Virus record (IMG/VR): IMGVR_UViG_3300032215_000643
Span: 1 to 64,000 of that record
Length of the DNA: 64,000 nucleotides
Strand: one strand, 5' to 3'
Source: a virus
Below, one piece after another: positions 35,717 through 54,958 of the stretch. The first letter of the stretch is position 1, and each line of letters opens with the position of its first letter. The translations under genes and the position numbers were made by a program. The notes beneath the pieces were generated by a model. It saw nothing but the letters and a program-made list of their open reading frames with translations. It did no database searches and was not told the DNA's origin.

Positions 35717-35722
35717 TATAAT
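35717..35722 (+). promoter_or_regulatory. -10 box (TATAAT) for a nearly leaderless transcript
   Basis: TATAAT ends 9 nt before the A of ATG 35731. A start at the usual distance would leave a leader of 0-2 nt. No ribosome-binding site precedes that ATG. Confidence 0.45.
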
Positions 35723-35730
35723 AGAATCAA

Positions 35731-37679: not shown

Positions 37680-37689
37680 TAGGATTATT

Positions 37690-39318: not shown

Positions 39319-39319
39319 T

Positions 39320-39469
39320 ATGGTTAAACTTTATGAGTCAAAGCAATGGCTTTATAAAAGGTATGTAGTTGAAAAGAAAAATATTGTGCAGATGGCGCAA
39401 GAAGCAAACTGTAGTCATATGACTATTCAGCGTGCCTTAGAAAAAACGGGCCTTAGTAGAAAAAAATAA
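39320..39469 (+). CDS. Small helix-turn-helix protein
   Basis: 49 residues from the ATG at 39320; GAGG precedes it, and the longer frame upstream lies within the resolvase gene. Nearly all of it is a homeodomain-like HTH ([34 protein letters not shown]). It lies at the border between the recombination module and the sugar island and could regulate either. The role is unknown. Confidence 0.6.
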
Positions 39470-39470: not shown

Positions 39471-40502
39471 ATGAAAAAAGCATTGATAACTGGGGTTACT
39501 GGGCAGGACGGTTCTTATTTAGCGGAACTTCTTCTTAGTAAGGGGTACGATGTTCATGGTATGAAGAGAAGGTCTTCTTCTATTAATACTGAAAGAGTTA
39601 ATCATATTTATGATAACAAGAATTTTAAGTTGCATTATGGAGATTTAACAGATGCAACTAGTACAATGCATTTGATTTCTGATATTCAACCAGATGAAAT
39701 ATATAATCTTGGTGCCCAGAGTCATGTGCAGGTTTCATTTGAGATCCCAGAATATACTGCACAGGTAGATGCTATTGGAACTTTAAGAATTTTAGAGGCA
39801 GTTCGTCTTTTAGGCATGAAAGATAGAACTAGGATTTATCAAGCATCTACTTCAGAATTGTACGGTTTAGTTCAGGAAGTTCCTCAAAAGGAGACTACTC
39901 CTTTTTATCCAAGGTCACCTTATGGTGTCGCAAAATTGTATGGTTTTTGGATTGTAAAAAATTATAGAGAATCTTATGGGCTTCATGCAAGTTCTGGAAT
40001 TTTATTTAATCATGAATCTCCACGTCGTGGTGAGACGTTTGTAACGAGAAAGATCGTAATGGGATTGGCAAATATTTTTGCGGGTAATCAAGAAGTGATA
40101 AGACTTGGTAATTTAAATGCTCGCAGAGATTGGGGCCATGCTAAAGATTTTGTGGAAGCCATGTGGTCGATGTTGCAGCAAGAAGTTCCAGATGATTATG
40201 TTATTGCTACTGGAAAACAGTACTCTATTAAAGAGTTTGTTGAGGCTTGTTCTCCATATTTTAATATGTCAATTGAATGGCGTGGCGAGGGTGTTAATGA
40301 AGTAGGAATTGATACTAATACGGGTAATCTTGTTATTGAAGTTGATTCACAATATTTTAGGCCGTCTGAAGTTGATAGCCTTTTGGGTGATGCAAGTAAG
40401 GCAAGACGTAATCTATCTTGGGAACCTAAAATAACATTTGAAGAATTAGTAAGTGACATGTGTGTGAGTGAATTAAATTTAATAAAAAGGAATAGTAAAT
40501 GA
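39471..40502 (+). CDS. gmd: GDP-mannose 4,6-dehydratase
   Basis: 343 residues, full family length. Extended SDR: NAD(P)-binding [11 protein letters not shown] (residues 8-18), [17 protein letters not shown] typical of Gmd, the STSELYG catalytic strand, and YGVAKLYG (Tyr-x3-Lys). [11 protein letters not shown] is the Gmd substrate motif. It makes GDP-4-keto-6-deoxymannose, the substrate for Fcl (47506). First gene of the sugar island, 1 nt after the previous gene. Confidence 0.95.
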
Positions 40503-41116
40503 AATCAAAAGAGAAGTTTGTAATTAGTAAGAGTGAAGTTCGTAGTTTTGATCGTTCCCACCTTAACGAATTTGCTTTGTATGAAGGAAATTTTGAAGGT
40601 CAGGGTTTTATTCTGGACCGTGACCCAAGGTATGAAGACCCATATAACTTGTATGGATATCTTTCTCATAAATTTAACAATACGACTATTCTGGATATTG
40701 GTACGCGCAGTGGCAATTCGGCGATTTCCTTTTCTTCCAATCCAAACAACAAGGTAATATCTTTTGATATTAAAGAATGGCCTAGTTTTAAAAATCTAAA
40801 GAAAGATAATATTGAACTCCGACTTGGAGATTTTATGCAAGATACAAGCATCAATTATGAAGAAGTATCCATTATCATGATTGATGTTGATCCTCATGAT
40901 GGGCTACAAGAGCCTCCCATGCTAGAGTTTTTGCGTAACATAGGTTGGAGTGGATTGTTATTACTTGATGATACTGGACCAAACCTGTTCCCTGCTATCT
41001 ACTATATGTGGATGACTATTCCAGAAGAAAAATTTGACCTAACAGATATTGCACATTTTTCAGGAACCGGATTGCTAAATTTTGGGGACAAGTACGACAT
41101 AGAGATAGTAGAATAA
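40499..41116 (+). CDS. Class I SAM-dependent methyltransferase
   Basis: 205 residues. [12 protein letters not shown] (about residue 64) is the SAM-binding motif, and [11 protein letters not shown] (about 124) the post-motif Asp. It probably methylates a sugar or a sugar nucleotide, given its position between gmd and an epimerase gene; the substrate is unknown. ATGA overlap with gmd. Confidence 0.65.
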
Positions 41117-41940
41117 TGAGAATCCTAGTTCTTGGTTCTGATGGGCAGATAGGTTCGCACCTTGTCAAATATTTAGAAAACCTTAATCATACAGTGGTTC
41201 GTTGGGATAATGCTTCTGAGTTTGAAAAAGATTTACGCATAGTCAATGACAAGTTTGAGGTAGAGGTTTCTGATTCTGATTTTGTTTTCTTTCTCGCCTT
41301 TGATGTTGGTGGCTCAAGGTACCTTTCAAAATACCAGAATACATATAGTTTTTTAAATAATAATATTAAAATAATGGATAATGTGTTCAATGTTTTAAAC
41401 AAAACTAAGAAACCTTTTATATTTTTAAGTAGTCAGATGTCGAATATGATTCATTCTCCTTATGGAATAACTAAATTGGTTGGTGAATCGTATACTAAAA
41501 CTATTGGTGGATTGTCAGTAAGGTTGTGGAATGTTTACGGTTTAGAGAGTGATCCCGAAAAGTTTCATGTGATTACTGATTTTATTAATATGGCTAGAAA
41601 TGATGGGTATATTAAAATGATGACTGATGGAAAAGAATCAAGAGATTTGCTTTATGTAGAAGATTGTTGCGAGGGTCTGGTTAATGTTATGGAAAATTAT
41701 GAAAATATTTCAAGTGAAGAAAACCTTTGCCTAGCGTCATTTGAAAATGTTACGATCAAAGAGGTCGCAGATATTATTGCAGAAAAGTATTCTGTAAATG
41801 TAATTGCTGGTGATAAAATTGATTTAATTCAATTAGATATGAAGAATCAACCCGGTCAAGAAATTTTAAAATACTGGAGTCCTAAGACAGCGTTACGGGA
41901 TGGTATCTATAAAATAGTAGAAGAAATGGAAAATAGATGA
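41116..41940 (+). CDS. NAD-dependent epimerase/dehydratase
   Basis: 274 residues. The Rossmann motif GSDGQIGSHL is at residues 7-16, and YGITKLVGE (Tyr-x3-Lys) near 117. VRLWNVYG follows, as in sugar-nucleotide epimerases. The N-terminus has a long insertion with a Ser in FLSSQMS that could be catalytic. Substrate not evident; likely a nucleotide-activated deoxyhexose. Overlaps the next gene by 4 nt. Confidence 0.75.
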   Translation: MRILVLGSDGQIGSHLVKYLENLNHTVVRWDNASEFEKDLRIVNDKFEVEVSDSDFVFFLAFDVGGSRYLSKYQNTYSFLNNNIKIMDNVFNVLNKTKKPFIFLSSQMSNMIHSPYGITKLVGESYTKTIGGLSVRLWNVYGLESDPEKFHVITDFINMARNDGYIKMMTDGKESRDLLYVEDCCEGLVNVMENYENISSEENLCLASFENVTIKEVADIIAEKYSVNVIAGDKIDLIQLDMKNQPGQEILKYWSPKTALRDGIYKIVEEMENR

Positions 41941-42749
41941 TAAAAGTAGATTTACATTCTGCTGAAATTTTTACTGAAGTTCGTGCTACTTCTTTAAATA
42001 ATTTTAATAAAAATTTTCATTGGGTTCAAGATGGTACGGGTGACATTGAAATGTTTATAGATAGGCATATTCAATTAAAAACTAGTGATTTTCATTCTTT
42101 ATCTAAGCCTTCATACGGATGGCTATTGGAATCAAAAACTATTATTCCCGAAATTTATCAATGGGTGGAGGATTATAAAAGTTATCTTAAGTTAAACTTT
42201 AAAGGAATTTTTACTCATGATGCTGAACTGTCTAAAAAAGATCCAGACTTTTTTCTTTTAACAATGTGTAACGCAGCACCTTGGGTCACTGATAGGAATA
42301 TTCATCCTAAAAGCAAATTGATATCAATGATTAGTTCTGATAAAAGTTTTGCAGAGGGGCATAGGCATAGGTTGTCCTTGGTGGATAAGTATAGGAATGG
42401 GGTAGATCTTTATGGAAGAGGGATTAGAACTTTTAGTCGTAAAGAGGAACCCCTAGTGGATTATATGTTTTCTATTAATATAGAAAATGCTAAGTATGAT
42501 AATTATTTTACAGAAAAACTTACAGACTGTTTTGCCTGCGGAACGGTACCTATTTTTTATGGTTCTGATGCTATAGTTGATGAGATGTTTGATAGTAGGG
42601 GCGTTATTAAACTTACCCATGATTTTTCAATTGATCAAGTATCTAAAGATTTGTATTACGATATGATGCCCTATATTAAAAATAATTTTGAAATCGCTTG
42701 TCAAATTAAAACAGCGGAAGATTACATAGAAGAAAAATATTTTGCATGA
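41937..42749 (+). CDS. GT10-like alpha-1,3-fucosyltransferase
   Basis: 270 residues. The strongest feature is the C-terminal GT10 signature: MFSINIENAKYDNYFTEKL, then CGTVPIFYGS (nt about 42467-42561), the family's GDP-fucose-binding region. The N-terminal acceptor half is less conserved. With gmd and fcl present, GDP-L-fucose is the probable donor. No membrane helix or signal peptide, so it acts in the cytoplasm. Overlaps both neighbours by 4 nt. Confidence 0.75.
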   Translation: MIKVDLHSAEIFTEVRATSLNNFNKNFHWVQDGTGDIEMFIDRHIQLKTSDFHSLSKPSYGWLLESKTIIPEIYQWVEDYKSYLKLNFKGIFTHDAELSKKDPDFFLLTMCNAAPWVTDRNIHPKSKLISMISSDKSFAEGHRHRLSLVDKYRNGVDLYGRGIRTFSRKEEPLVDYMFSINIENAKYDNYFTEKLTDCFACGTVPIFYGSDAIVDEMFDSRGVIKLTHDFSIDQVSKDLYYDMMPYIKNNFEIACQIKTAEDYIEEKYFA

Positions 42750-44116
42750 TTGAATTAATAATTTTTGACCTAGATGGTGTTCTAGTGGATATTAAAAAGT
42801 TGCATTTTGATGCTTTAAATGAAGCGTTGTCTGAAGTTGACTCTAATTATATTATTAATCATGATGAGCATTTATCTATTTATGATGGGCTTAAGACTAA
42901 AGAAAAATTAAATATGCTTACTAGGAACAAGGGTTTGCCCGAAAAAGATCATGATAAAGTGTGGTCTAGAAAACAGCAATTGACAATGGAAATGCTAGAT
43001 TGTTTAGAGCCTAATGAAGATTTAATTTATGCAATTAAAAAATTAAAAGAGTCTGGATTCAAGGTTGCTTGCTGTTCTAATTCAATCGTGTCTACAATAA
43101 ATAAAGCATTAGAAAAAATTGGTGTAATTGAATATTTTGATAATATTCAGGGAAATGATAATGCAATAAACTCTAAGCCCCATCCTGAATTGTACTGGAG
43201 GGCGATGATTACTTTAAGCGTAATGCCAGAGAAAACTTTAATTGTAGAAGATTCTCCGATTGGCTTGCTTGCAGCAAAGCGGTCTGGTGCCCATTTTATC
43301 AGGGTAAATAATAGTAATGATTTGAAAATAGAAAGATTAGAAAGTGAATTAAATTCTTTAGATAGCAAATTAGAAGTTAATTGGAAAGATCCACGGTTAA
43401 ATGTTGTGATCCCAATGGCTGGTAGTGGAACAAGGTTTCAAAAGGCTGGCTATACTTTCCCTAAACCATTGATTGATGTAAATGGAAAGCCGATGATTCA
43501 GTGGGTAGTAGATAATCTTGGGATAGAAGCAAATTTTATATTTATTGTGCAAAAAACTCATAGAGAAAAGTACAATCTTGATTCTATGCTTAATTTAATT
43601 TCACCTAAATGTAAGATAGTAGAAGTTGATGGGATTACTGATGGGGCTGCTTGCACTACGTTGCTTGCTAAAGAGTATATAAATAATGATGCCCCGATGC
43701 TAATGGCAAATTCAGATCAGTTTTTAGAGTGGGCTTCTTCTGAATTTCTTTATAAGATGTATGAGCAAGGCAATGATGGTGGGATTGTTACTTTTAAGTC
43801 TACTCACCCTAAATGGTCGTTTGCTAAGACAGATGATTTTGGTAAAGTTTTAGAGGTAGCAGAAAAGAATCCTATATCTGATAATGCTACTGCTGGAATT
43901 TATTATTGGAAGCATGGAAGTGATTATGTTAAATACGCTGAGCAGATGATTGCTAAAGAAGTTCGCGTGAATAATGAATTTTATGTGTGTCCAGTTTTTA
44001 ATGAAGCGATAGAAGATGGTAAGGATATTAAAATTTTTAATATTGAAAAGATGTGGGGTCTGGGTACACCAGAAGATTTGAATCATTTTTTGAACAATTA
44101 TGAAAGAAAACATTAA
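42746..44116 (+). CDS. Bifunctional HAD phosphatase - sugar nucleotidyltransferase
   Basis: 456 residues made of two enzymes. Residues 1-205: HAD hydrolase with FDLDGVLVD, CCSNS and VEDSPIGLLAAKRSGA. Residues about 215-456: GT-A nucleotidyltransferase starting VVIPMAGSGTRFQKAGYTFP, with PKPLIDVNGKPMI. The fusion could dephosphorylate one sugar phosphate and activate another, perhaps forming the nucleotide sugar used next door. The substrate is unknown; sequence does not tell whether GTP, CTP or UTP is used. Confidence 0.8.
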   Translation: MIELIIFDLDGVLVDIKKLHFDALNEALSEVDSNYIINHDEHLSIYDGLKTKEKLNMLTRNKGLPEKDHDKVWSRKQQLTMEMLDCLEPNEDLIYAIKKLKESGFKVACCSNSIVSTINKALEKIGVIEYFDNIQGNDNAINSKPHPELYWRAMITLSVMPEKTLIVEDSPIGLLAAKRSGAHFIRVNNSNDLKIERLESELNSLDSKLEVNWKDPRLNVVIPMAGSGTRFQKAGYTFPKPLIDVNGKPMIQWVVDNLGIEANFIFIVQKTHREKYNLDSMLNLISPKCKIVEVDGITDGAACTTLLAKEYINNDAPMLMANSDQFLEWASSEFLYKMYEQGNDGGIVTFKSTHPKWSFAKTDDFGKVLEVAEKNPISDNATAGIYYWKHGSDYVKYAEQMIAKEVRVNNEFYVCPVFNEAIEDGKDIKIFNIEKMWGLGTPEDLNHFLNNYERKH

Positions 44117-44946
44117 TGAAGAAGTCCTGTTTTGTTTGTCCTGTTCACCCTCCTAAATATCATTTTGCTGAGCAACTTGTTCAAAGTTATAATAATTTTT
44201 ATGAAGATTCAGATTTATTTTTGGTATTTTCAAATGTTGAGGAAAGACTGTTATTTGAAGAATTAACATTAAATAAGAATTTAAATTATAAGAGCATAAT
44301 TTTTTCAGAAACTTTAAGTGATTATCCTATTACACAAAAAAAGTTCTTTGGGCTTCAGTATGTGTTTGAGAATACGGATTTTGAAAAAGTTGGCGTGATA
44401 GATTGTGATTCAGTATTTATTAAAACTGTTGATTATGATTTCCTGTTTGATGAGTTTTATGAAAAGAAAAAGATTTATGGCACAACGCTTACAGAACATG
44501 GTGGTGTTTTGCCACCGGGAGCAATTAGAACAATAACTTCATCACCTCTTCCTCTTTTTAGTGAAGAAGATCAGAACGATATAATTTTAAAAACAAACAA
44601 TCTGAGTTTGTATTTTTGGTTTAATAATATTCCAATATATGAAAAAACTAATTTTAAAAATTTTATTGAGTATATTGATTATGATGGGAGTAAATTAAAT
44701 CCTGTAGGTTTGGATTTTGATTTTATTGTATATTGTTATTTCTTAATGATAAAAGATCTTATTGTTTTAGAGGATATGAATTTTGAAATAGAGTTGGGTT
44801 TTTTGGAAGAGCAAAAAAATATTCCTGTTGAAATTTTTGTGCCGTTGTTTCAAAAGATCGAACCGTTTTGGCTAACAAAACCTGAGTATCTTCCAGAAGA
44901 GATGTTAAAAAATGTTTTTATTAAATTTCATGTGGATCGTTTGTAG
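44116..44946 (+). CDS. Glycosyltransferase-like protein
   Basis: 276 residues. A GT-A-like nucleotide-sugar half is suggested by VGVIDCDSVFIK (DxD) near residue 95, preceded by KKFFGLQYVFEN. The C-terminal half is Phe/Tyr/Glu-rich and unfamiliar. The fold is inferred from the DxD and the neighbours. It starts 1 nt inside the preceding stop. An alternative is a non-catalytic GT-fold protein. Confidence 0.5.
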   Translation: MKKSCFVCPVHPPKYHFAEQLVQSYNNFYEDSDLFLVFSNVEERLLFEELTLNKNLNYKSIIFSETLSDYPITQKKFFGLQYVFENTDFEKVGVIDCDSVFIKTVDYDFLFDEFYEKKKIYGTTLTEHGGVLPPGAIRTITSSPLPLFSEEDQNDIILKTNNLSLYFWFNNIPIYEKTNFKNFIEYIDYDGSKLNPVGLDFDFIVYCYFLMIKDLIVLEDMNFEIELGFLEEQKNIPVEIFVPLFQKIEPFWLTKPEYLPEEMLKNVFIKFHVDRL

Positions 44947-44951
44947 GTTAT

Positions 44952-45398
44952 GTGATTAAAATAATATGTCATCGTGGAAATATTGATGGTCCTGATCATT
45001 TAAAAGAAAATGATCCATCCTTTATTCAATCTGCATTGGACTTGGGTTTTGATGTAGAAGTAGATGTTTGGCTGATGGATGAAAAGTATTACCTTGGTCA
45101 TGATGAGCCGCAGTACGAGACTTCTTTGTTATGGTTAGAAGATCGTAGTGACAAATTGTGGATACATTGTAAGAATTTTGAAGCATTAAAGTCTTTTAGT
45201 TTAAATAATAATTTAAATTATTTCTGGCATCAAGAGGACAAGTTTACTTTGACATCTAAAAGATTTATTTGGACTTATCCAAATAACGAATTGGGTCAAA
45301 GTTCGGTGTGCGTATTGCCAGAAAAGGGATTTATTGGTACACTAGATAAGTGTCACGCTGTTTGCACCGATTATCCTATGAGGTATAGTGGATTTTAG
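44952..45398 (+). CDS. Glycerophosphodiester phosphodiesterase-like protein (short)
   Basis: 148 residues with a GTG start. IICHRGN (His-Arg-Gly), KENDPSF and DVEVDVWLMDEKYYLGHDEP keep the GDPD family pattern (HR, ExD, then H). It is only half the usual length (about 250), so the barrel would be incomplete. It could cleave a phosphodiester in a sugar precursor or a lipid head group. Unusual in a phage sugar cluster. Confidence 0.6.
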   Translation: MIKIICHRGNIDGPDHLKENDPSFIQSALDLGFDVEVDVWLMDEKYYLGHDEPQYETSLLWLEDRSDKLWIHCKNFEALKSFSLNNNLNYFWHQEDKFTLTSKRFIWTYPNNELGQSSVCVLPEKGFIGTLDKCHAVCTDYPMRYSGF

Positions 45399-46101
45399 TT
45401 TTGGAATCATAACCGATGGTTCTTCTGATCACAATATAAGTTTGATGATCGATAGTATTGAAAGAATGAATATTCCCAATTATGAAATAATTATAATTGG
45501 GAACTCTGCTATCTCAAGGAAGAATACTACAGTAGTCCCCTTCGCGGAAGAAGTTTTACAAATGTGGATTACTCATAAAAAGAATCTAATAACAAAAAAT
45601 GCTAAGTATGAGAATATAGTTTATTTACATGACTATATAATTTTTAATGAATATTGGTATCAAGGGTTTTTAATTCATGGAAATGATTTTAATGTCTGTA
45701 TGACAAAGATAATCAATTTAGATGGTAGTCGTTTTAGAGATTGGGTTCTTTGGCCTCATAATAATAATGACATGGACGCTCTTACTCATCCATCACTTCA
45801 ATGTTTAATCCCATATGAAGTTAGAAATCTTTCAAAATACATGTATATTTCTGGTTCTTATTGGGTTGCAAAAAAGACACTCATGGAAGAATTCCCTTTG
45901 GATGAGAGCCTTGTCTGGGGTCAGGGGGAAGATGTTGAATGGTCGTTTCGGGTTAGAGATAAGTTTGATTTTTCTATGAATGAATTGTCTAGTGTCCATT
46001 TGCTGAAGTATAAGCCAGCAGTATTTTATCCTCCAGATGAGAATACGCTTGAGTTGTTAAAGAAATTTGGTAATGATACAGAAGAATTGGAAGTTTTATG
46101 A
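45388..46101 (+). CDS. GT2-like glycosyltransferase
   Basis: 237 residues with a GTG start (GAGG 5 nt before) and an 11-nt overlap with the gene before. 'FSFGIITDGSSDHNISLMI' opens like a GT-A domain, with IVYLHDYIIF (about residue 75) as the likely metal site, and WGQGEDVEWSFRVRDKF near the end matches the acidic ED motif of GT2/GT27-like enzymes. Adds an unknown sugar. Confidence 0.6.
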   Translation: MDFSFGIITDGSSDHNISLMIDSIERMNIPNYEIIIIGNSAISRKNTTVVPFAEEVLQMWITHKKNLITKNAKYENIVYLHDYIIFNEYWYQGFLIHGNDFNVCMTKIINLDGSRFRDWVLWPHNNNDMDALTHPSLQCLIPYEVRNLSKYMYISGSYWVAKKTLMEEFPLDESLVWGQGEDVEWSFRVRDKFDFSMNELSSVHLLKYKPAVFYPPDENTLELLKKFGNDTEELEVL

Positions 46102-46739
46102 TACATTGCATAGGAGATAGTCATTCCGCATTTTTTAGTGGTGTGGAAGATATGCAACCACAGTGGCCCAGTATTGCATCGAATGCTTTGCCTTGGTTTA
46201 AGAGTTACAGAATTGGCCCTGCGACAGCATATAATTTAGACAGTAAGCGGGATCTGATAGAGTCTATTTACTTTTCTGGTCTAGTTGCAGAGAACGATTC
46301 TGTAATGTTTTGTTTTGGTGAAGTTGATTGTCGCGCACATATAATAAAGCAGGCTGCCTTGCAGGGCCGGGGGTTCCATTCGGTTGTAGAAGAATGTGTT
46401 AACCGTTACATACGTTCTATTGAATATTACGAGAACTATGGTAGAAAAATTTTGGTTTGGGGTCCAATCGCTTCTTGGAATGATAGTAAACCTTACACTG
46501 GTCCATCTTATGGGACAAATTTAGAAAGAAATCAAGTTTCAAAAATGTTTAATGAAATTCTAAGTAAAGAATGTGAACAACGCGGTTACACGTTTGTTTC
46601 TATCTTTGAGAAAATGTTGAATGAAGATTCGACAACTAATACTTTATATCTAGACAATTGGGAAGGTTCTCATATGCATCTTTCTCAAACAGCCATGCCG
46701 ATGACGTTGGAAGTTTTTACAGAAAAGGGAATTATATGA
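46098..46739 (+). CDS. SGNH/GDSL-type hydrolase
   Basis: 213 residues. Motifs: IGDSHSAFF (Ser nucleophile, residue about 8), FCFGEVDCR (block III-like, about 75) and SHMHLSQTA (Asp/His-type end, near 190). Members remove or transfer acyl groups, often acetyl on sugars. Within a glycan cluster it may trim or modify an O-acetyl group. There is no signal peptide, so it acts in the cytoplasm. ATGA-type overlaps on both sides. Confidence 0.65.
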   Translation: MIHCIGDSHSAFFSGVEDMQPQWPSIASNALPWFKSYRIGPATAYNLDSKRDLIESIYFSGLVAENDSVMFCFGEVDCRAHIIKQAALQGRGFHSVVEECVNRYIRSIEYYENYGRKILVWGPIASWNDSKPYTGPSYGTNLERNQVSKMFNEILSKECEQRGYTFVSIFEKMLNEDSTTNTLYLDNWEGSHMHLSQTAMPMTLEVFTEKGII

Positions 46740-47500
46740 ATTGGGATATAGAAAAACAATATGCTACAAATTATTTAACGTCATGTCTGATTGCAGCCTT
46801 AGATGATCAAACTTTTAATAATTTTAAAAAAGATCCATACTATCAGGGAATTTTAGAACATATATCTTATCAAGAGTCTTTATGGTATTTGGATAATCTA
46901 TTAGATGAAAATTTGATGTTGAATAATCTGGCAAAATTAAGAGAAAATGATAATTTTTGTAATGCAGAAATTTTGGATTATGAAAATATTGGAAAATTTT
47001 CTCCTTCTACTATAAGATATATAAAACAGTCTGTAGACATTGCTGTATTTTTTAAGGATAAGAATATTCGCAAAGTTTTTGAAATTGGTGGGGGGTACGG
47101 CGGTTTGTGTAAGACGTTGAATGTGTTTATAGATTTTGATGCTTATGTAATCGCAGATTTTGATAATTGTAATAAATTGTCTTCTAGGTATTTGAACTTG
47201 TTTAAAGAATTTGATAATAAAATTTTTTATCAAGATTGCGAGAATCTTAAAGAAGAAAATGATATTGATTTATTGATTAGTAATTATGCTGTTTCGGAAC
47301 TTGACTGGGATGGTCAATTGGAATATTATGAAAAAATTATTAAAAATTCAACAAATTTTTATATAACATATAATTTTATTAATAATTCAAGTAGCCCTTA
47401 TGAAAAATTTATTGAATTATGCAGCAAAGATTTTGATGTTGAAATTAAAGATGACAACCTTTTTTCAAACAGGGTCTTATTTGGCGTTAAGCGGGGATAA
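46736..47500 (+). CDS. Putative sugar O-methyltransferase
   Basis: 254 residues from the ATG at 46736 (ATGA overlap with the preceding TGA; the longer frame upstream lies inside the previous gene). VFEIGGGYGGLCKTL (about residue 112) is a SAM-binding glycine motif and LLISNYAVSELDW a post-motif. The pattern with 'ISNYAVSE' resembles the putative sugar O-methyltransferase family. Adds a methyl group to a sugar, substrate unknown. Confidence 0.65.
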   Translation: MNWDIEKQYATNYLTSCLIAALDDQTFNNFKKDPYYQGILEHISYQESLWYLDNLLDENLMLNNLAKLRENDNFCNAEILDYENIGKFSPSTIRYIKQSVDIAVFFKDKNIRKVFEIGGGYGGLCKTLNVFIDFDAYVIADFDNCNKLSSRYLNLFKEFDNKIFYQDCENLKEENDIDLLISNYAVSELDWDGQLEYYEKIIKNSTNFYITYNFINNSSSPYEKFIELCSKDFDVEIKDDNLFSNRVLFGVKRG

Positions 47501-47505
47501 TCAGT

Positions 47506-48438
47506 ATGAATATTGATAGTTTAATTTATGTTGCTGGTCATAGAGGTTTAGTTGGCTCAGCCCTTGTTCGTCGTTTGAAAGAGCAGGGGTATACAAATAT
47601 TATTACTATGACTAGAAACGAGTTAGACTTGACTGATTCTGTTGCGACAGCAGAATTTTTTGCTAGTCATCGTCCCGAATATGTTTTTGACGCGGCAGCA
47701 AAAGTTGGGGGCATTTATGCCAACGATAATTATTCTGCAGAATTTATAAATGAAAATCTTTCTATTCAAACAAACTTAATTCATAATTCATGGAAGTATA
47801 GTGTCAAGAAATTTCTTTTTATGGGTTCTGTCTGTATTTATCCAAAATATGCTGAGTGCCCAGTTAAAGAAGATTCTCTTCTTACTGGAAAGTTGGAACC
47901 TACCAATGAGGCTTATGCAATTGCAAAAATAGCAGGAATTAAGATGTGTGAAGCCTATAATAAACAATATGGTTTTCAATGTTTATCTGTAATGCCATCC
48001 AATCTTTATGGACCTAACGACAAGTTTGATCCAGCCAACGGTCATGTTATTCCAGCAATGATAGTGAAGTTTCTATCAAGTACCGATCAGGTCACTTTTT
48101 GGGGTGACGGAAGCCCATATAGAGAATTTTTACATTCCGATGATATGGCAGACGCTTGCATTGTTTTGATGAACAGTTTAGAAACTGGTAATGCTGAGTT
48201 AATTAATATTGGTTCAGGAGACAATATTTCTATAAAAGATTTAGCAGAAAAAATATCTAAAGTTATTGGATACTCTGGTGAAATTAATTGGGATACGGTT
48301 AGACCCAATGGGACACCGATGAGGCCACTTGATTTTTCTAAAATAAAGAAACTAGGCTGGGAGCCAAAAGTTTCTTTAGATGAGGGGTTGAAGGAAACGG
48401 TGACTTGGTATAGAATGAACGAGGATGGTGTCAGGTGA
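47506..48438 (+). CDS. fcl: GDP-L-fucose synthase
   Basis: 310 residues. Rossmann motif YVAGHRGLVGSAL, AAAKVGGIYANDNY (family-specific), GSVCIYPKYAECPV and YAIAKIAGIKMCEAY with Tyr-x3-Lys. Epimerises and reduces the Gmd product to GDP-L-fucose. Together with gmd (39471) it completes the pathway from GDP-mannose. No GDP-mannose-making enzyme is recognisable, so GDP-mannose would come from the host. Confidence 0.95.
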   Translation: MNIDSLIYVAGHRGLVGSALVRRLKEQGYTNIITMTRNELDLTDSVATAEFFASHRPEYVFDAAAKVGGIYANDNYSAEFINENLSIQTNLIHNSWKYSVKKFLFMGSVCIYPKYAECPVKEDSLLTGKLEPTNEAYAIAKIAGIKMCEAYNKQYGFQCLSVMPSNLYGPNDKFDPANGHVIPAMIVKFLSSTDQVTFWGDGSPYREFLHSDDMADACIVLMNSLETGNAELINIGSGDNISIKDLAEKISKVIGYSGEINWDTVRPNGTPMRPLDFSKIKKLGWEPKVSLDEGLKETVTWYRMNEDGVR

Positions 48439-49184
48439 TTAGTTTTAATAGTTTGGGTAGTCTTGGTCGTCTAGGAAATCAAATGTTTCAGTACGCCTCC
48501 TTAAAGGGCATTGCTAGGAATAGAGGGTTTGAGTTTTCTATTCCTTGGAGTCCATTCTTAGATCCTTGGCGTGACCATCAACTTTCTAATGTTTTTAAAT
48601 TACAAGATAATTTAATTTTAAATTCTCCAGAACAACCTTATACTGCTGAAGAAAAGTTTTTTGGTTTTGATTATGATTTGTTTAACTATGTTGAAGATAA
48701 TTCGGATCTTGTTGGCTATTTTCAAACAGAAAGATATTTTTCTCATATAAAGGATGAGATTTTAGAAGATTTTTCTTTTAAAGAAAAGTTTGATGATGTG
48801 GTTTCAGATTATTTTACAGTTATTCATGTGAGAAGGACAGACTATCTGGCTTTTAGCAATCATCATCCCACTTGCTCTTTAGATTATTACAAGGAAGCGA
48901 TGGACATTACTGGTGGACCTTTTCTTGTAGTCTCAGATGATATTGAATGGTGTCAAAAAAATATTACTGCTGATGAGTATTCTAAATCTTCCAATGTTAA
49001 AGATTTATATTTGATGAGTAAAGCAAAAAATAATATAATTGCTAATAGTTCTTTCAGTTGGTGGGGGGCATGGCTTAATCAAAACCCTAATAAAAAAGTT
49101 ATTGCTCCAAATAAATGGTTTGGTCCTGCTTATGATCATTATAATTTGGAAGATCTTATCCCAAAGGAATGGATTAAACTGTAA
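48435..49184 (+). CDS. GT11-type alpha-1,2-fucosyltransferase
   Basis: 249 residues with a GTG start. Family motifs: GRLGNQMFQYASLKG (about residue 10), VIHVRRTDYLAF (about 135) and IIANSSFSWWGAWL (about 200). GT11 enzymes use GDP-L-fucose, matching gmd/fcl next door. Second fucosyltransferase of the island after the GT10 gene. Cytoplasmic. Confidence 0.9.
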   Translation: MISFNSLGSLGRLGNQMFQYASLKGIARNRGFEFSIPWSPFLDPWRDHQLSNVFKLQDNLILNSPEQPYTAEEKFFGFDYDLFNYVEDNSDLVGYFQTERYFSHIKDEILEDFSFKEKFDDVVSDYFTVIHVRRTDYLAFSNHHPTCSLDYYKEAMDITGGPFLVVSDDIEWCQKNITADEYSKSSNVKDLYLMSKAKNNIIANSSFSWWGAWLNQNPNKKVIAPNKWFGPAYDHYNLEDLIPKEWIKL

Positions 49185-49795
49185 TGATAAATAGTATTGT
49201 TGAGAAAGCATATTGTATTTCTTTAGAAAGAAGGCCCGACCGATGGGTCGCAGCAGAAGAACAGTTTAAAAATAATGGTATGGTTGTTGAAAAATTTTTA
49301 GCAACAGATGGGGCTTTGCTAGAGCCAAACCCAGCCTTACACAGCGGGGAAGCAGGATGCTTAGACTCGCATAGAAGAGTCTTAAAGGACGCAATAGATA
49401 ATGATTTAGAGTGCATCGCAGTGTTTGAAGATGATGTGTATTTTGTTGAAAACTTTGCTTCGCGGTTTGATGAATATTTTCGTGAAGTTCCCTCAGATTG
49501 GCAATTCTTATACTTAAGTTTTAATCGTCATTCTGGTCAGACTATGAGGGTTACAGATAGGGTTGTTAGAATTTCTAATGCTTATTCAGCACATGCATTG
49601 TTTTTAAAACGAGATGCGATAAACTATTCTTATAACTTAATGTTAAATGATTCATTGCCTTCAGATGTGTACTTTGGAATGGCTCAGTATGCGTATCCAG
49701 CATATGGGCCTTCTAGAATGCTTGCAGGTCAAAGAACTGGTTTTTCAGATATTGTTCAGCAAGATGTTAATTACGATTGGATTTATGGATTATGA
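49184..49795 (+). CDS. GT25-type glycosyltransferase
   Basis: 203 residues. AYCISLERRPDRWVAAEEQF at the start and AVFEDDVYFVENF (ExD metal site) near residue 83 are diagnostic of the GT25 (LPS galactosyltransferase-like) family. GEAGCLDSHRR is the conserved switch segment. Adds galactose or a related sugar, probably to a fucose-containing glycan. Confidence 0.85.
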   Translation: MINSIVEKAYCISLERRPDRWVAAEEQFKNNGMVVEKFLATDGALLEPNPALHSGEAGCLDSHRRVLKDAIDNDLECIAVFEDDVYFVENFASRFDEYFREVPSDWQFLYLSFNRHSGQTMRVTDRVVRISNAYSAHALFLKRDAINYSYNLMLNDSLPSDVYFGMAQYAYPAYGPSRMLAGQRTGFSDIVQQDVNYDWIYGL

Positions 49796-50355
49796 TTTCT
49801 ACAGATACTTTAAGAAATATTTTTAACGATAGTGGTAGTGATAAGTCTAGTTCTCATAATTATGAGGTTGCTTATTCTCAAATTTTGCCGGAAAAAATTG
49901 ATTCAATGTTAGAAGTTGGAATTTCTAATGGTCATGACGGTAAAAGTTCTTTGTGGGCTTGGAGTGTGCTTTATCCAGATGCAAAAATTTATGGCGCGGA
50001 TAATGATATTGTTAAACTTATAAATGATAATAATATTGAAAGTTATAGGTTAGATCAATCTGACGTTCTTCAGTTGTTTGAATTTTCTAAGTTATTTGAA
50101 AAAAAATTAGATGTTATTGTTGATGACGGAAGTCACGTTTTTAAACATGCTTTTCTAACTTATCAATTTCTTTTTCATCTTACAGATCTATATATTATTG
50201 AAGATATTGCAAAGAATTATAATGGGTGGCAGCAGACAGTTGCTGATTGGAAAAATGAATTAGATGGTCAAGAAAATATTCTGTATGGAGTAATTGACAC
50301 TCTCCCTGAAGAAAAAATGGATGACAGTGTTGTTATTTGGATAAAAAGGAAATAA
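49792..50355 (+). CDS. Class I SAM-dependent methyltransferase-like protein
   Basis: 187 residues from the ATG at 49792 (ATGA overlap). MLEVGISNGHDGKSS (about residue 37) and LDVIVDDGSHVFKHA (about 106) match a family of methyltransferases often found in polysaccharide clusters. Probably methylates a sugar. Substrate unknown. Confidence 0.65.
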   Translation: MISTDTLRNIFNDSGSDKSSSHNYEVAYSQILPEKIDSMLEVGISNGHDGKSSLWAWSVLYPDAKIYGADNDIVKLINDNNIESYRLDQSDVLQLFEFSKLFEKKLDVIVDDGSHVFKHAFLTYQFLFHLTDLYIIEDIAKNYNGWQQTVADWKNELDGQENILYGVIDTLPEEKMDDSVVIWIKRK

Positions 50356-50359
50356 TTTA

Positions 50360-51118
50360 ATGTTTTTTAATTCAATAGAAAATTTGATTAAGGTCAATGT
50401 TCCAGAATTTCCTGTTGTCATTCCGACATTTAATAATCCAACATATTTAAAGAAAACTGTTGATTATTTTTCCGAAAGGGGCTTTGAAATCATTGTATTA
50501 GATAATGCTTCAACTTACCCTCCAATGCTAGAGTTGTTGTTTAATTTATCTGAAGAGGATAATATTTTTGTCGTTGCTTTGCCAAGCAATTATGGTCCAA
50601 GATATTTTTATGAAAATAAAAATTTTTATTCATGGCTTCCTAATCATTTTTTTGCAACAGATCCAGATTTAGAATTTAACAAAAATTTGAAAAAAGAAAA
50701 TTGGCTTGAGTTAATTGAAGTTAGCAGAACACTTGGAGTATATAAAGTGGCGGCTGCCCTTACCTTGGATATTGAAGATAGTGAACATGAACTTGATGTT
50801 TTGATTTCTAGTATGAATACTACTGTTAGAAAAATAGAAAGTGGATATTATGAAAATATTTGCATGGTCACAGATCAGGGTGACACAGTTTACATAGCCC
50901 CAACAGATACCACCATGTCTCTCTATAATAAAGAATTTGAAGGACATTTCATGCTTTCTTGTGTTAGAGTTTCAGGGAAATTTGACACATTGCATTACGG
51001 TTGGTTGACTAATCCACCCATCCCAAAAGAGGAAAAAGATTATTATACAGAAGCCTGTAGAGATAATTTTTATTCATCAGGGGAAGTTGTTAAAAGAGGT
51101 CAAGGACCAACTTACTAA
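50360..51118 (+). CDS. GT2-like glycosyltransferase (single)
   Basis: 252 residues. FPVVIPTFNNPTYLKKTVDY starts a GT-A fold, IIVLDNASTYPPM continues it, and HFFATDPDLEFN (DxD-like DPD) is the metal site. The C-terminal region is unfamiliar. TATTTAATG-type junctions on both sides. The donor is not predictable. Confidence 0.65.
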   Translation: MFFNSIENLIKVNVPEFPVVIPTFNNPTYLKKTVDYFSERGFEIIVLDNASTYPPMLELLFNLSEEDNIFVVALPSNYGPRYFYENKNFYSWLPNHFFATDPDLEFNKNLKKENWLELIEVSRTLGVYKVAAALTLDIEDSEHELDVLISSMNTTVRKIESGYYENICMVTDQGDTVYIAPTDTTMSLYNKEFEGHFMLSCVRVSGKFDTLHYGWLTNPPIPKEEKDYYTEACRDNFYSSGEVVKRGQGPTY

Positions 51119-51702
51119 TGCCTAAATTTTCAGTAATAGCCGTAGATTATGAAAAACATGTTCCTCGCCAAGGAATGATTGATGGATTAAAATCTCTTGC
51201 AGAGCAAACCTTTCAAGATTTTGAACTCATCATTTGTCATGATGGTCCAAAGGAAGTTCCCTATGAAGAAGAAGTAGGCTTTAAAGAATTAGGGATTTCC
51301 CCTATAATTATAAATACACCACATCATGTTGGTGACTGGGGTCATTCAAGCCGTGATTTTTCTATGAGGCAGGCTACTGGTGAATACTTTATTCAATTTA
51401 ATATAGATAATAAATTTTACCCCACCGCTTTTGAAAAAATAAATGATTGTATTGAAGAAACTTCTTCAAGAGTGGTTATTTTTACAATCCAACACTTCAA
51501 AGAGGGTGGTAGATTTATTAAGGGTGTCCCTCCAACACACGCTCAAATTGATTGTATGCAATTAGTTGCACATAGAAGTGTGTGGGAAGAAATTGGTTAT
51601 TGGTATAACAAAAATAATGAATCTGATGGTTATATTTACACAAATATTGGACAAGAATATCCGTATGTCCATATTGATGAATGTTTAGGGGAAAATTATT
51701 AA
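51118..51702 (+). CDS. GT2-like glycosyltransferase, triplet member 1
   Basis: 194 residues. FSVIAVDYEKHVPRQGM opens it, then FELIICHDGPKEVPYEEE, GDWGHSSRD and FIQFNIDNKF (acidic metal site, about residue 98), ending CMQLVAHRSVWEEIGYWY and GENY. First of three tandem, similar genes that must have arisen by duplication. GT-A fold by pattern; substrate unknown. Ends at a TAATG junction. Confidence 0.7.
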   Translation: MPKFSVIAVDYEKHVPRQGMIDGLKSLAEQTFQDFELIICHDGPKEVPYEEEVGFKELGISPIIINTPHHVGDWGHSSRDFSMRQATGEYFIQFNIDNKFYPTAFEKINDCIEETSSRVVIFTIQHFKEGGRFIKGVPPTHAQIDCMQLVAHRSVWEEIGYWYNKNNESDGYIYTNIGQEYPYVHIDECLGENY

Positions 51703-52289
51703 TGAAGTTTTCTGTTATTGCAGTTGACTATGAAAAGCATGTTCCAAGAGAGCGCATGGTTAAAGGTTTGCAATCTTTAGCGAATCAATCATTTCAAGAT
51801 TTTGAGTTGATTGTAATCCATGATGGTCCTAAAGAAATTCCTTATGAGGAAGAGTTTGATTTTTCTGTTTTCCCAAACGAGGTAAAGTTTTTAAATACAG
51901 AAACAAGAATGGATAATTGGGGCCATTCAAGTAGAGATTTAGGTATGAGAAATGCTTCTGGTGAATTCTTTTTCCATTTTAATATTGATAATCTTCTTTA
52001 TCCAGATTGTTTTGAAAAAATAAATAATAAGTTAGAGGAAACAACCGCATTGGTTTTATTATTTGCTATTCTTCACTACAAGATTAATAATGGGACTTTT
52101 CCTTTTTACGGTCTTCCTCCTGTTTATCATAACATTGACGCTATTCAATTGGTTGCTCACAGAGAAATTTGGAGCAGTGTTGGATATTGGTATGATTTGC
52201 ATGAACAGGGTGATAGTGCAATCTATGAGAAAATGTGTAAAGATTATGGTTGGGCCTATATAGATGAAGTTTTAGCGGAGAATTATTAA
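51702..52289 (+). CDS. GT2-like glycosyltransferase, triplet member 2
   Basis: 195 residues from the ATG at 51702, which overlaps the previous TAA. Nearly the same sequence plan as member 1: FSVIAVDYEKHVPRERM, IHDGPKEIPYEEE, DNWGHSSRD and FHFNIDNLL, ending IDAIQLVAHREIW and AENY. It differs most in the central loop (residues about 60-75 and 125-140), where specificity would be expected. Confidence 0.7.
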   Translation: MKFSVIAVDYEKHVPRERMVKGLQSLANQSFQDFELIVIHDGPKEIPYEEEFDFSVFPNEVKFLNTETRMDNWGHSSRDLGMRNASGEFFFHFNIDNLLYPDCFEKINNKLEETTALVLLFAILHYKINNGTFPFYGLPPVYHNIDAIQLVAHREIWSSVGYWYDLHEQGDSAIYEKMCKDYGWAYIDEVLAENY

Positions 52290-52871
52290 ATGAAAGTTTC
52301 TATTATTGCAGTTGACTATGAGCATCACGTTCCAAGGGACGGTGCTTACAGGGGTTTGCTTTCAATTTCTGAGCAAACTTCTAAAGATTTTGAACTTATA
52401 ATAGTTCATGATGGACCCAAGGAAATTCCTTATGAGGAAGAGTTTGATTTTAAAGAATTAAATTTAAATCCAGTAATAACCAATACTTCTCACAGGATGA
52501 ATGATTGGGGGCATTCTTCTAGGGATTGGGGGATGCGTATGGCAAACGGTGATTATTTCCTGCAATTCAATATTGATAATGTTCTTTACCCAGATGCCAT
52601 AGAAGAAATTTGTAAAAAGATTGATGGATCTGGTACGCCAATAATTATTTTTAGTATTATCCATCACAAAGATAATGATAAGGTCTATACAGGAATACCC
52701 CCAGACCTGTACAATATAGATTGTATGCAACTTGTCGGTCACAGGGATATGTGGCAAGAATTGAACTATTGGTACGATAAACGAGATAGTTCTGACGGTT
52801 GGATCTATGAAGTTATTACTAGAAAATATAATTATTCAAATATTGAAAAATGTTTAGGCGAAAACTACTAG
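52290..52871 (+). CDS. GT2-like glycosyltransferase, triplet member 3
   Basis: 193 residues, starting directly after the previous stop. VSIIAVDYEHHVPRDGA, IVHDGPKEIPYEEE, NDWGHSSRD and FLQFNIDNVL, ending IDCMQLVGHRDMW and GENY. Same plan as members 1 and 2. Three adjacent copies may each add one sugar or differ in acceptor. Confidence 0.7.
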   Translation: MKVSIIAVDYEHHVPRDGAYRGLLSISEQTSKDFELIIVHDGPKEIPYEEEFDFKELNLNPVITNTSHRMNDWGHSSRDWGMRMANGDYFLQFNIDNVLYPDAIEEICKKIDGSGTPIIIFSIIHHKDNDKVYTGIPPDLYNIDCMQLVGHRDMWQELNYWYDKRDSSDGWIYEVITRKYNYSNIEKCLGENY

Positions 52872-52878
52872 GAGAATT

Positions 52879-53892
52879 GTGAAAAGGGTTTTACTAACCG
52901 GAGCGTCTGGTTTTGTGGGAAGCCATGTACTGCGTCATATTATTTTAAATACAGATTGGTTTGTGGTTTGTCCAACAACCTTTACTCACAAGGGGTTACA
53001 GGATAGAATCAGGGTTGCTTTGGATGACCTTCCAGATGCGTACAAGCGGGTAAAAATTATTCGTTGTGACTTTACCTCTCCAATTTCTCCCATTACTGCC
53101 AGAGAGTTTGGTAACGTGGATCTTGTTATTAATGTGGCAAGTGAAAGTCATGTTGATAGAAGTATCGAAGAGCCTGCCCAGTTTGTTATTAATAATGTGT
53201 CATTGATTTGTCACGTTCTTGATTGGGCTAGGAATTCAAATATTGAAAAGTTTATTCAAGTTTCTACTGATGAAGTTTATGGTCCTGCTCCTGATGGGTA
53301 TGCTCATATTGAATGGGAAGATCAGCATCTACCTAGTAATCCTTATTCTGCTTCAAAGGCTGCTCAGGAAGATATTGCTTTCTCCTATTGGAGAACTTAT
53401 GGAGTCCCGTTAATTATTACTAATACTATGAATATTATTGGTGAGACTCAAGACCCAGAGAAATATATTCCAATGACTATTAAAAATGTTATTGATGGAG
53501 AAAAAGTTTTAATTCATGGTTCTCCTGATGATGGTAGGATTGGTAGTCGTTTTTATTTACATGCGCGTAATCAGGCTGATGGATTACTTTATGTCTCTAA
53601 CTTGCCAGCACCTGCATATGGGGAATCTAATATGCCAGCAAGGTATCATATTGCGGGTGAGCGTGAAGTTGATAATTTAGAGATTGCAAAATTAATTGCA
53701 GAATATGTTGGTAAACCTCTTAATTATGAAATTGTTGATTTTCATTCTTCAAGGCCCGGTCATGATCTAAGATATGCTCTTAATCAAAATAGGATTGAAA
53801 ATGCGGGATGGAAGATGCCTCTTCCGTTTGAAGAATCTTTAGAAAGAACTGTTAAGTGGACATTAAATCATCCCGAATGGCTCATGATCTGA
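52879..53892 (+). CDS. dTDP-glucose-dehydratase-like NAD-dependent sugar epimerase
   Basis: 337 residues with a GTG start (AGGAG before). Extended SDR: TGASGFVGSHVL (residues 7-18), NVASESHVDRSIEEP (as in RmlB), STDEVYG and YSASKAAQE (Tyr-x3-Lys). Closest to dTDP-glucose 4,6-dehydratase-type enzymes; the substrate is unproven because the rest of the rhamnose pathway is absent. Last gene of the sugar island. Confidence 0.8.
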   Translation: MKRVLLTGASGFVGSHVLRHIILNTDWFVVCPTTFTHKGLQDRIRVALDDLPDAYKRVKIIRCDFTSPISPITAREFGNVDLVINVASESHVDRSIEEPAQFVINNVSLICHVLDWARNSNIEKFIQVSTDEVYGPAPDGYAHIEWEDQHLPSNPYSASKAAQEDIAFSYWRTYGVPLIITNTMNIIGETQDPEKYIPMTIKNVIDGEKVLIHGSPDDGRIGSRFYLHARNQADGLLYVSNLPAPAYGESNMPARYHIAGEREVDNLEIAKLIAEYVGKPLNYEIVDFHSSRPGHDLRYALNQNRIENAGWKMPLPFEESLERTVKWTLNHPEWLMI

Positions 53893-53917
53893 GTTAATAC
53901 CTGAGATTGGAATAATA

Positions 53918-54958
53918 ATGAAACTGTATCGACAAGAAAACCAACTGTGCTTCGATGACATTTTGTTGGTCCCGAATCCATCTGCTGTAGAAAGTAGAAA
54001 AAACGTAGATTTGTCTATGTCAATTGGATATGGGAATAGAAAGATTGATTTGTATTTGCCTGTTATTTCTTCTCCTATGGATACGGTTACCGAATCTGAA
54101 ATGGCTGTTGAGGTTGCTAAGTTTGGTGGTCTTGGAATTATTCATAGGTATTCTAAGATTGAAGATCAGGCGGCTCAGGTTTTTGAAGTTTCTAAAAAAG
54201 GTTATGCTGTTGGTGCATCTGTTCCAACGTCAGTTAGAGATTCAGTGCTTCCTCAAGTAAAGTCATTGGTTTATGTCGGTGCTAAAGTAATTTTAGTTGA
54301 TACTGCAAATGGTCATAACTTTGCTGCGATTAAGGCTGTTTCAGAAATTAGAAAAGAGTTTCCAGATATTCATATTATGGCTGGAAATGTTTCTACTTGG
54401 GACGGGTTCCTTCATCTTTCTCAGGCTGGAGCAGATTCAGTTCGCGTAGGTATCGGCGGTGGTTCATGTTGCAGTACACGAATTATGACTGGTCATGGCA
54501 TTCCGACATTGGCTTCTATTATGGAAATTTATGAATATCAAGAACGTCTAGATCTTCCTACGTCTATTATTGCAGATGGAGGAATTAGAAATTCTGGAGA
54601 TATGGTAAAGTCATTTGCGGCAGGCGCTGATGCAGTCATGGTTGGATCTATGCTTTCTGGTCACACAGAGTCACCGGGTAATGTTTTTAGGGAAGATGGA
54701 AAAGATTACAAGCGAATTCGTGGCATGGCAAGTTCTCATGCTCAAAAGGATTGGCGTGGTTCTGTAAGTGGTGAAGAGGGCATTTCAACTAAGGTCTTGT
54801 TTAAGGGTCCAGCAGAGAACACTCTTAATTCTATTAGAAACGGTATTTCAAGTGGTTGTTCTTATGCAGGTGTAGAGAGATTAGAAGAGTTAAGTATTAC
54901 ATCTCAGTATGTAAAAGTTTCACCTTTATCTGTAAAGGAGAGTTTGCCTCATGTATGA
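53918..54958 (+). CDS. IMP dehydrogenase / GMP reductase family enzyme
   Basis: 346 residues, with no CBS domains. The TIM-barrel signatures are present: FDDILLVP (opening), ISSPMDTVTE, GLGIIHR, VGIGGGSCCSTR (catalytic Cys region) and GGIRNSGDMVKSFAAGADAV. The flap (RIRGMASSHAQ, then EGISTKVLFKG) and the end (SSGCSYAGVERLEELS) look more like GMP reductase than IMP dehydrogenase. It interconverts IMP and (X/G)MP, so it alters purine pools, relevant to GTP and GDP-sugars. Confidence 0.8.
   Translation: MKLYRQENQLCFDDILLVPNPSAVESRKNVDLSMSIGYGNRKIDLYLPVISSPMDTVTESEMAVEVAKFGGLGIIHRYSKIEDQAAQVFEVSKKGYAVGASVPTSVRDSVLPQVKSLVYVGAKVILVDTANGHNFAAIKAVSEIRKEFPDIHIMAGNVSTWDGFLHLSQAGADSVRVGIGGGSCCSTRIMTGHGIPTLASIMEIYEYQERLDLPTSIIADGGIRNSGDMVKSFAAGADAVMVGSMLSGHTESPGNVFREDGKDYKRIRGMASSHAQKDWRGSVSGEEGISTKVLFKGPAENTLNSIRNGISSGCSYAGVERLEELSITSQYVKVSPLSVKESLPHV

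Follow-up and report, generated by a model that had tools for sequence, protein, structure and literature searches.

Why would a phage that probably infects an actinobacterium carry a pathway to GDP-L-fucose and a large set of glycosyltransferase (GT) genes next to its terminase gene, and what do the products decorate? The question is raised by the first 64,000 bases (the window) of the 78,922-base virus record IMGVR_UViG_3300032215_000643. Here, 19 contiguous open reading frames (ORFs) on the + strand (g1 to g19, 39471-53892, ~14 kb) are followed by an ORF of the IMP dehydrogenase/GMP reductase (IMPDH/GMPR) family (g20, 53918-54958), an arrangement that an original prediction from the sequence had described and that our analysis bears out. 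The island fills a fixed slot between the genes for a RuvC-like resolvase and the large terminase, and comparison with a close relative (G001; the window's record is G000) indicates that the whole cassette was swapped between otherwise near-identical phages, apparently from a gene pool partly shared with cyanophages. Judged from gene sequences, what is new is a swappable cassette in a variable slot, with empty and filled sites and whole-cassette replacement. Our preferred explanation, to which we give about even weight, is that this glycan cassette glycosylates a virion protein of an actinophage related to the Stanwilliamsviridae. The genes of the slot and its borders are listed below, percentages being identities.

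37690-38472, +, Cas4-like exonuclease, left-flank core gene; 50% to the region annotated as Cas4 exonuclease in Streptomyces phage Phredrick (OR553903)
38752-39318, +, RuvC-like resolvase; 43% to the RuvC-like resolvase of Phredrick; its last base is the end of the 94.2% DNA identity with G001
39263-39469, +, small protein, helix-turn-helix-like by eye, at the slot's left edge; kept in relatives, no match in Phredrick at 1e-6
39471-40502, +, g1, Gmd, GDP-mannose 4,6-dehydratase; TIGR01472, 555 bits (cut-off 415)
40499-41116, +, g2, possible methyltransferase; PF13578 (Methyltransf_24), 15.6 bits, below the cut-off of 26.3; 51% in G001
41116-41940, +, g3, epimerase/reductase of the short-chain dehydrogenase/reductase (SDR) type; PF01370, 96.5 bits (cut-off 20.9)
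41937-42749, +, g4, GT10 fucosyltransferase-like; PF00852, 36.8 bits (cut-off 23.9)
42746-44116, +, g5, fusion of a HAD phosphatase and a sugar-1-phosphate nucleotidyltransferase; PF13419 and PF00483, both above cut-off; PDB 4evw
44116-44946, +, g6, no function assigned; no family or PDB match
44952-45398, +, g7, phrog_34507, a PHROG family of unknown function (4.4e-34)
45388-46101, +, g8, possibly GT-like by eye; DUF1101 below cut-off, no PDB match
46098-46739, +, g9, GDSL/SGNH hydrolase-like; PF13472, 20.9 bits, below the cut-off of 32.9
46736-47500 (alternative start 46658), +, g10, possible sugar methyltransferase by eye alone; no convincing family match
47506-48438, +, g11, Fcl, GDP-L-fucose synthase; NF047922, 417 bits over the full length, below the cut-off of 500
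48435-49184, +, g12, GT11, alpha-1,2-fucosyltransferase-like; PF01531, 93.7 bits (cut-off 23.9), motif HVRRTD
49184-49795, +, g13, GT25; PF01755, 57.3 bits (cut-off 24)
49777-50355, +, g14, methyltransferase-like; phrog_21658 (phage methyltransferase), 2.9e-9
50360-51118, +, g15, GT2; PF00535, 27.9 bits (cut-off 23.3)
51118-51702, +, g16, small GT-A enzyme; PF00535, 31.8 bits; 84% in G001, the best-kept island GT there
51681-52289, +, g17, paralogue of g16 (54%); PF00535, 37.9 bits
52290-52871, +, g18, paralogue of g16 (56%); PF00535, 44.7 bits
52879-53892, +, g19, SDR resembling NDP-hexose 4,6-dehydratases; TIGR01181, 217 bits, below the cut-off of 365; PDB matches to dTDP-glucose 4,6-dehydratases
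53918-54958, +, g20, IMPDH/GMPR family; PF00478, 323.6 bits
54951-56262, +, g21 to g23, right-flank genes; 98-99% in G001
56259-58094, +, large terminase; 61-65% to Streptomyces phages (30 best of 376 phage records)

The fucose pathway that had been predicted is supported: Gmd exceeds its curated cut-off, and Fcl, although short of its own, carries the motifs GSVC, YAIAK and GHVIPA, which we take to have catalytic roles in this enzyme. Likewise, the predicted transferases all exceed their Pfam cut-offs, giving seven GTs (GT10, GT11, GT25 and four GT2 enzymes, g15 to g18). Of the further sugar-modifying enzymes foreseen, the epimerase stands with the SDR g3; the methyltransferases and the acyl hydrolase-like gene give weak matches or matches below cut-off. 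The description of the genes as mostly overlapping by 1-4 nt holds for 10 of 18 junctions (with the g10 start at 46736), the other eight ranging from a 22-base overlap to a 7-base gap. The single-strand run itself is no argument for a functional unit, because 65 of the 74 ORFs of at least 90 amino acids in the window are on the + strand. Relatives of the GT11 gene occur in 103, and of the GT10 gene in 19, of 50,697 phage records, and the phages that carry them are named Synechococcus, Prochlorococcus, cyanophage, marine, uncultured or plain 'Bacteriophage'.

How fixed is the slot? We surveyed 82 sequences: the window, Phredrick and 80 terminase loci, to three of which adjoining pieces had been added. 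Of these sequences, 51 contain both borders. In five of the 51, the slot is 179-197 bp long (two of the five share identical terminases). Another 38 slots span 547-2980 bp and hold two to six ORFs, three span 4.3-5.2 kb, and the five largest, of 8.7-16.3 kb, belong to the window (16 kb), G017, G001, L007 and G002. Gmd, GT10, GT11, GT25 and g15-like GTs are common to the slots of the window, G017 and G001. Fcl is shared by the window and G017 (Gmd 79%, Fcl 60%), and an SDR of G001 reaches 84 of 500 bits on the Fcl model. The G017 slot additionally has HddA-, GmhA- and HldE-like heptose genes, all below cut-off; that of L007 has Gmd with a C-methyltransferase, and that of G002 shares g5, g7, g8 and g19 with the window.

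The comparison with G001, whose terminase is 99% identical to that of the window, delimits the replacement. The DNA of the two is 94.2% identical over 24954-39318, ending at the last base of the RuvC gene, and strong identity returns at 52293 (91.6% to 58308); between 39318 and 52293, pieces of at least 150 bases reach 66-73% at most. At the protein level, g19 and g20 are 95% and g16 is 84% identical, and the other island genes that are shared reach 42-63%. Seven island genes have no match in G001 at 1e-5, and the island Fcl finds distant SDRs alone there (24-26%). In a midpoint-rooted tree of 58 Gmd sequences (8 from this phage group, 5 from cyanophages and 45 of 80 bacterial loci), whose bootstrap had yet to converge and which includes L017 and L139 as long rows, one group (support 95/83) unites the Gmds of the window and G017 with all five from cyanophages and a single SAR86 single-cell row, and those of G001, L007, L017, L096 and L076 form a separate phage-only set (100/97). 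Because identity breaks off at RuvC, the genes are replaced and the Gmd lies on another branch, we conclude that a whole cassette was exchanged between otherwise near-identical phages. The best 80 of 575 bacterial Gmd loci in genome contigs are 59-68% identical to the window's, and no actinobacterium is named among the matches listed. The SAR86 single-cell contig in the cyanophage group (L139) could be viral DNA in the cell.

Could the island simply be cargo or packaging filler without function? In the 2010 comparison PMC3037559, clusters of this kind in cyanophages (including P-SSM2 and S-SSM7) are called lipopolysaccharide (LPS) genes, and whether they work or are 'stuffer DNA' is left open there. 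In the window, all 19 ORFs are open, and the same families are kept in several islands. We estimated nonsynonymous (dN) and synonymous (dS) divergence by NG86, comparing g16, g19 and g20 with G001, and gmd and fcl with G017. The values of dN and dS were 0.10 and 1.10 for g16, 0.025 and 0.45 for g19, 0.026 and 0.50 for g20, 0.16 and 1.95 for gmd and 0.35 and 3.34 for fcl (dS saturated in the last two), compared with 0.004 and 0.19 for terL. Hence, dN/dS is 0.05-0.10 across the five genes, with the values for gmd and fcl subject to that saturation; the measured genes are under purifying selection and are therefore not filler. We regard functionless cargo as most improbable, and the family matches, the conserved copies in relatives and the low dN/dS of the measurable genes together exclude chance as an explanation of the island.

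The lineage of the virus bears on what its sugars might decorate. The 30 best of 376 phage records matched by the large terminase are all Streptomyces phages, and Phredrick has the arrangement of the window, in which Cas4, a small gene, RuvC, the slot and the terminase follow one another in this order. Both the terminase similarity and this order place the virus near the Stanwilliamsviridae, the family name coming from Phredrick alone. A WhiB protein is encoded at 77276-77596 of the record (27.5 bits, cut-off 23.6); WhiB is used as an actinophage marker in PMC10202952 and PMC6802176. In the former, the freshwater actinobacterium 'Ca. Planktophila' served to bait phages. Based on WhiB and the kinship of the terminase, the virus probably infects an actinobacterium. 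The first gene of the record is the tape measure gene, and G001 extends ~24 kb further upstream of it, with portal- and capsid-like ORFs by eye; therefore, the record is a partial genome, actinophage-like in its genes.

If this phage makes fucosylated sugars, where do they go? The original prediction had seen no lipid-carrier transferase, flippase, polymerase or membrane helices and had named such genes elsewhere in the genome as what would overturn its proposal. A simple Kyte-Doolittle scan gives no hydrophobic peak for any of the 19 island proteins, and among 250 slot ORFs two have a single peak and none is polytopic. In the records searched, among which Phredrick is the sole complete genome by title and the others come without an estimate of completeness, we found the initiating transferase family of the WbaP type (PF02397) in 0 of 21 and the families of Wzx (PF01943), WecA/MraY (PF00953) and Wzy (Wzy_C, PF04932) in 0 of 26 each; the same searches were positive in 9, 13, 12 and 9, respectively, of 14 control genomes. 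A capsule or O-antigen locus of the Wzx/Wzy type is thus rejected for the DNA covered. The missing flippase, polymerase and initiating transferases argue against a self-sufficient capsule pathway; export by the host could serve instead.

The last point undoes the step from a missing Wzx to an acceptor other than the host surface, since no phage-encoded flippase is needed for a phage to alter the envelope of its host: the prophage enzyme TarP glycosylates wall teichoic acid (PMC9650247). The cassette GTs might, in the same manner, modify cytoplasmic, lipid-linked envelope precursors that a host flippase then exports, and so block superinfection or the re-adsorption of progeny. The predicted structure of g16 (pLDDT 90.9) has a GT-A fold, and Foldseek places it nearest to a Leptospira GT, SpsA, TarS, RmlT, WrtF and TarP; its structural nearness to TarS, TarP and RmlT fits modification of the envelope. 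However, the matches to TarP and TarS (E from 3e-11 to about 1e-9, TMq 0.74-0.79) are accompanied by matches to SpsA, RmlT and WrtF and so are not specific, and because many GT2 enzymes share this fold, the donor and acceptor of g16 cannot be read from the structure. The S-SCSM1 authors (PMC9602691) take the cyanophage counterparts as cell wall genes. A wholly phage-made set of 19 genes seems to us large for this purpose; we consider envelope modification less likely than a virion acceptor, but a serious competitor and the main one.

Phage DNA is the other acceptor to be weighed, the nucleic acid of the predicted 'virion protein, or nucleic acid', and a glycan placed on it would evade nucleases. 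Some phage GTs have been reported or proposed to glycosylate DNA (PMC10202952, PMC12619734). However, the ThyA family (PF00303, thymidylate synthase/hydroxymethylase) was found in 0 of 26 records, mostly of unestimated completeness, with 9 of 14 controls positive, and TET/JBP (PF12851) in 0 of 26 in a search that had no positive control. DNA is hence an unlikely acceptor, and we give this explanation little credence; of the cytoplasmic acceptors that had been predicted, the nucleic acid finds no support and the virion protein has precedent.

That precedent comes from actinobacteriophages. In mycobacteriophages, phage GTs modify the capsid and the tail tube (PMC11600133 and PMC12619734, citing Freeman 2023), and PMC13313380 also reports virion glycosylation in actinobacteriophages. 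Several GTs lie next to methyltransferase genes there, as in the window, whose methyltransferases are weakly supported; cluster O has three GTs and an O-methyltransferase, compared with a GDP-fucose pathway, 19 genes and cassette exchange, known from genes alone, in our case. Moreover, the capsid protein of the chlorovirus PBCV-1 is glycosylated by the virus in the cytoplasm, and GDP-L-fucose is among the products of this virus (PMC5408694). This virus infects eukaryotic algae, and we cite its likewise virus-made GDP-L-fucose as a functional analogy and claim no kinship. We favor a virion protein as the acceptor because of the actinobacteriophage precedent and because of a chlorovirus with its own GDP-fucose pathway.

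We hypothesize that Gmd and Fcl would convert host GDP-mannose to GDP-L-fucose and that additional activated sugars would be produced or processed by g3, g5 and g19. The GTs, the methyltransferases and the possible hydrolase could then assemble a short fucosylated oligosaccharide in the cytoplasm, which would be attached to a structural protein of the virion, most likely of the capsid or tail. The inner portion of this glycan, by which it is attached, may come from the recurrent g16 and g19 and its outer portion from the variable cassette, so that variation of the cassette would change the particle surface, as bacterial serotype loci do.

Does the virion vary together with the cassette? The tail genes allow a first answer.

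18-20158, +, tail module; PHROG tape measure and tail matches; six of seven genes 46-64% to G001

Within this block, the six genes have these identities in their best segments, and the seventh is 84% identical. Among the small genes on the fibre side, that at 58324 is 67% identical, that at 59923 has no match and that at 60702 is 57% identical over part of its length; a gene of unknown role at 25588 is 48% identical. Over the genes compared, which extend to 69530, the divergence of this one pair is concentrated in the island and the tail/fibre genes. The control pair G008/G009 has terminases 99.5% identical, alike 1.8 kb slots and no island homologues, and, apart from the outermost 3.6 kb of the contig, the 36 kb that precede its terminase region are 94-97% identical in DNA. 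The region with tail genes is 94-95% identical there; this placement depends on two weak hits of window tail genes (31 and 43%), the tape measure being unmatched. A search for a second informative pair among 24 large loci gave seven pairs with terminases more than 85% identical, of which six have alike slots by ORF size or content; L109/L110 differs downstream of the terminase, and the L109 contig is 27.8 kb.

Several points weigh against glycosylation of a virion protein. The tail co-divergence is one pair set against one control that has no glycan island, a lead and not a statistic, and it is equally compatible with modification of the host surface, where masking of the receptor would lead to the same expectation. 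G000 starts at the tape measure gene, so that the comparison begins there and does not take in the capsid and the tail tube. In addition, wall teichoic acid GTs have the same fold as g16. We considered whether two collagen-like tail-type proteins, at 58512-59921 and 20553-20975 (Gly-X-Y runs of 30 and 36 residues, respectively), could be an acceptor of the GT25 enzyme that varies with the island; both are conserved in G001 (the two values being 89% and 95%) and so do not co-vary, which leaves this candidate unsupported. The 58512 fibre sits elsewhere in G001 (49356).

What does the purine gene add? According to the original prediction, it could raise the supply of GTP and GDP-mannose. In an alignment with the IMPDH of PDB 4q32, the flap of g20 lacks a counterpart of the DRYFQ stretch, which is likewise absent from 20 phage homologues besides the window's own. 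We take the Arg-Tyr dyad in the flap to be the mark of IMP dehydrogenase and its lack to be GMP-reductase-like. The NCBIfam models score 281 of 481 bits for IMPDH and 231 of 397 bits for GMP reductase, both below cut-off, with IMPDH higher. Hence, g20 appears GMP-reductase-like by its flap, yet leans toward IMPDH by score. If it is a GMP reductase, it would consume GMP, and GMP would be lowered rather than raised; a contribution of g20 to GTP supply is thus unsupported by the flap alignment and the model scores.

The same gene is a reason to ask whether the sugars stay free or serve host metabolism, the module being mainly a nucleotide-sugar metabolic switch. A purine gene lies at most 3.5 kb from an island homologue in 20 of the 21 loci with readable upstream DNA; a search with g19 supplied 13 of these loci, which makes them a biased sample, and the subset fetched by terminase, free of that bias, gives 7 of 8. 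However, 27 terminase-bearing loci have an island homologue but no purine gene in the DNA examined, which is often short, and seven GTs need an acceptor. A purely metabolic role therefore seems to us very improbable.

The nearest islands that we found, those of the cyanophages S-SM2 and S-SCSM1, suggest that the window holds one of the same kind in another lineage and probable host type. The LPS/cell wall clusters of T4-like cyanophages are likewise runs of nucleotide-sugar and GT genes; these phages infect cyanobacteria, in contrast to the other lineage and the actinobacterial host indicated here by terminase and WhiB. Pooled over cyanophages, the characteristic set is contiguous Gmd, Fcl, GT10, GT11 and GT25 genes in a tailed phage, and the window has all of them. 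S-SCSM1 has Gmd, Fcl and GT11, as the window does, and its 13 genes are called cell wall genes in PMC9602691. S-SM2 has genes of the GT10, GT11, GT25 and heptose types as well as a gene 45% identical to g19; unlike the window, it has no Gmd in the stretch examined. The cyanophage Gmds that group with the window's in the tree are 70-74% identical to it. A closer phage with less in the slot is Phredrick, in which Cas4 and RuvC on the left and the terminase on the right enclose two GTs and one nucleotidyltransferase among other genes, compared with 19 island genes in the window; these GTs have no homology to island genes by tblastn (1e-6) or phmmer (1e-3). In the literature passages retrieved, no actinophage fucose island was found; one paper, on Curtobacterium prophages, describes host-wall sugar genes and a depolymerase that resembles a fucosidase.

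That such genes also occur in a phage of a probable actinobacterium, several under purifying selection and exchanged as a unit at one slot, argues against filler and weakens the LPS label. We tentatively suggest that aquatic actinophages may have a serotype-like locus in which whole glycan cassettes, partly taken from a pool in common with cyanophages, and tail types are exchanged together, so that near-identical phages would have chemically different sugar coats on their virions. On this view, the 'LPS clusters' of cyanophages would also serve the virion coat and would not be LPS genes. The question becomes directly testable: are the virions sugar-coated, and does cassette exchange alter host range or adsorption?

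Related genes also occur outside the slot. In G002, a Gmd relative (60%, L017:8983) lies between g23 and the terminase, and other relatives have a second site for genes of this kind, beyond the downstream end of the terminase gene, with a Gmd (64%, L076:8339) in one case and a Gmd-Fcl pair (69% and 55%, L052:14971) in another. The recurrent slot gene g19 has relatives at 43 viral loci. In a lineage of ten loci (L109, L110, L113-L115, L117, L118 and L120-L122), with terminases 50-60% identical to the window's, both g19 and the IMPDH/GMPR gene are found on the downstream side of the terminase. They are direct neighbours in five of these loci and separated by 2.6 kb in the other five, and the two genes seem to have moved together. 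A 68% relative of g19 is present on a 336 kb viral contig (L123), where no other window gene matched within the 21 kb examined.

The G+C content is 31-41% across the window. The island has 31-36%, compared with 38-41% in two other stretches (20-38 kb and 54-64 kb), but values as low as those of the island (32-33%) also occur in the tail genes at 6-12 kb. An Rfam scan at gathering thresholds gave one tRNA as the sole RNA element and no wcaG RNA, unlike the annotation of S-SCSM1. One further GT is encoded outside the island at 64049-65185 of the record (phrog_7162, 1.4e-23; 96% conserved in G001), and G001 has another GT-like ORF by eye at L092:3547-4581. A protein of 431 amino acids at 66521-67816 of the record has five hydrophobic peaks and is ferric reductase-like by eye, with no PHROG match and no relative in the genome contigs search. 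Finally, positions 62677-63126 of the window encode a protein that is Dps/ferritin-like by eye and 97% identical in G001.

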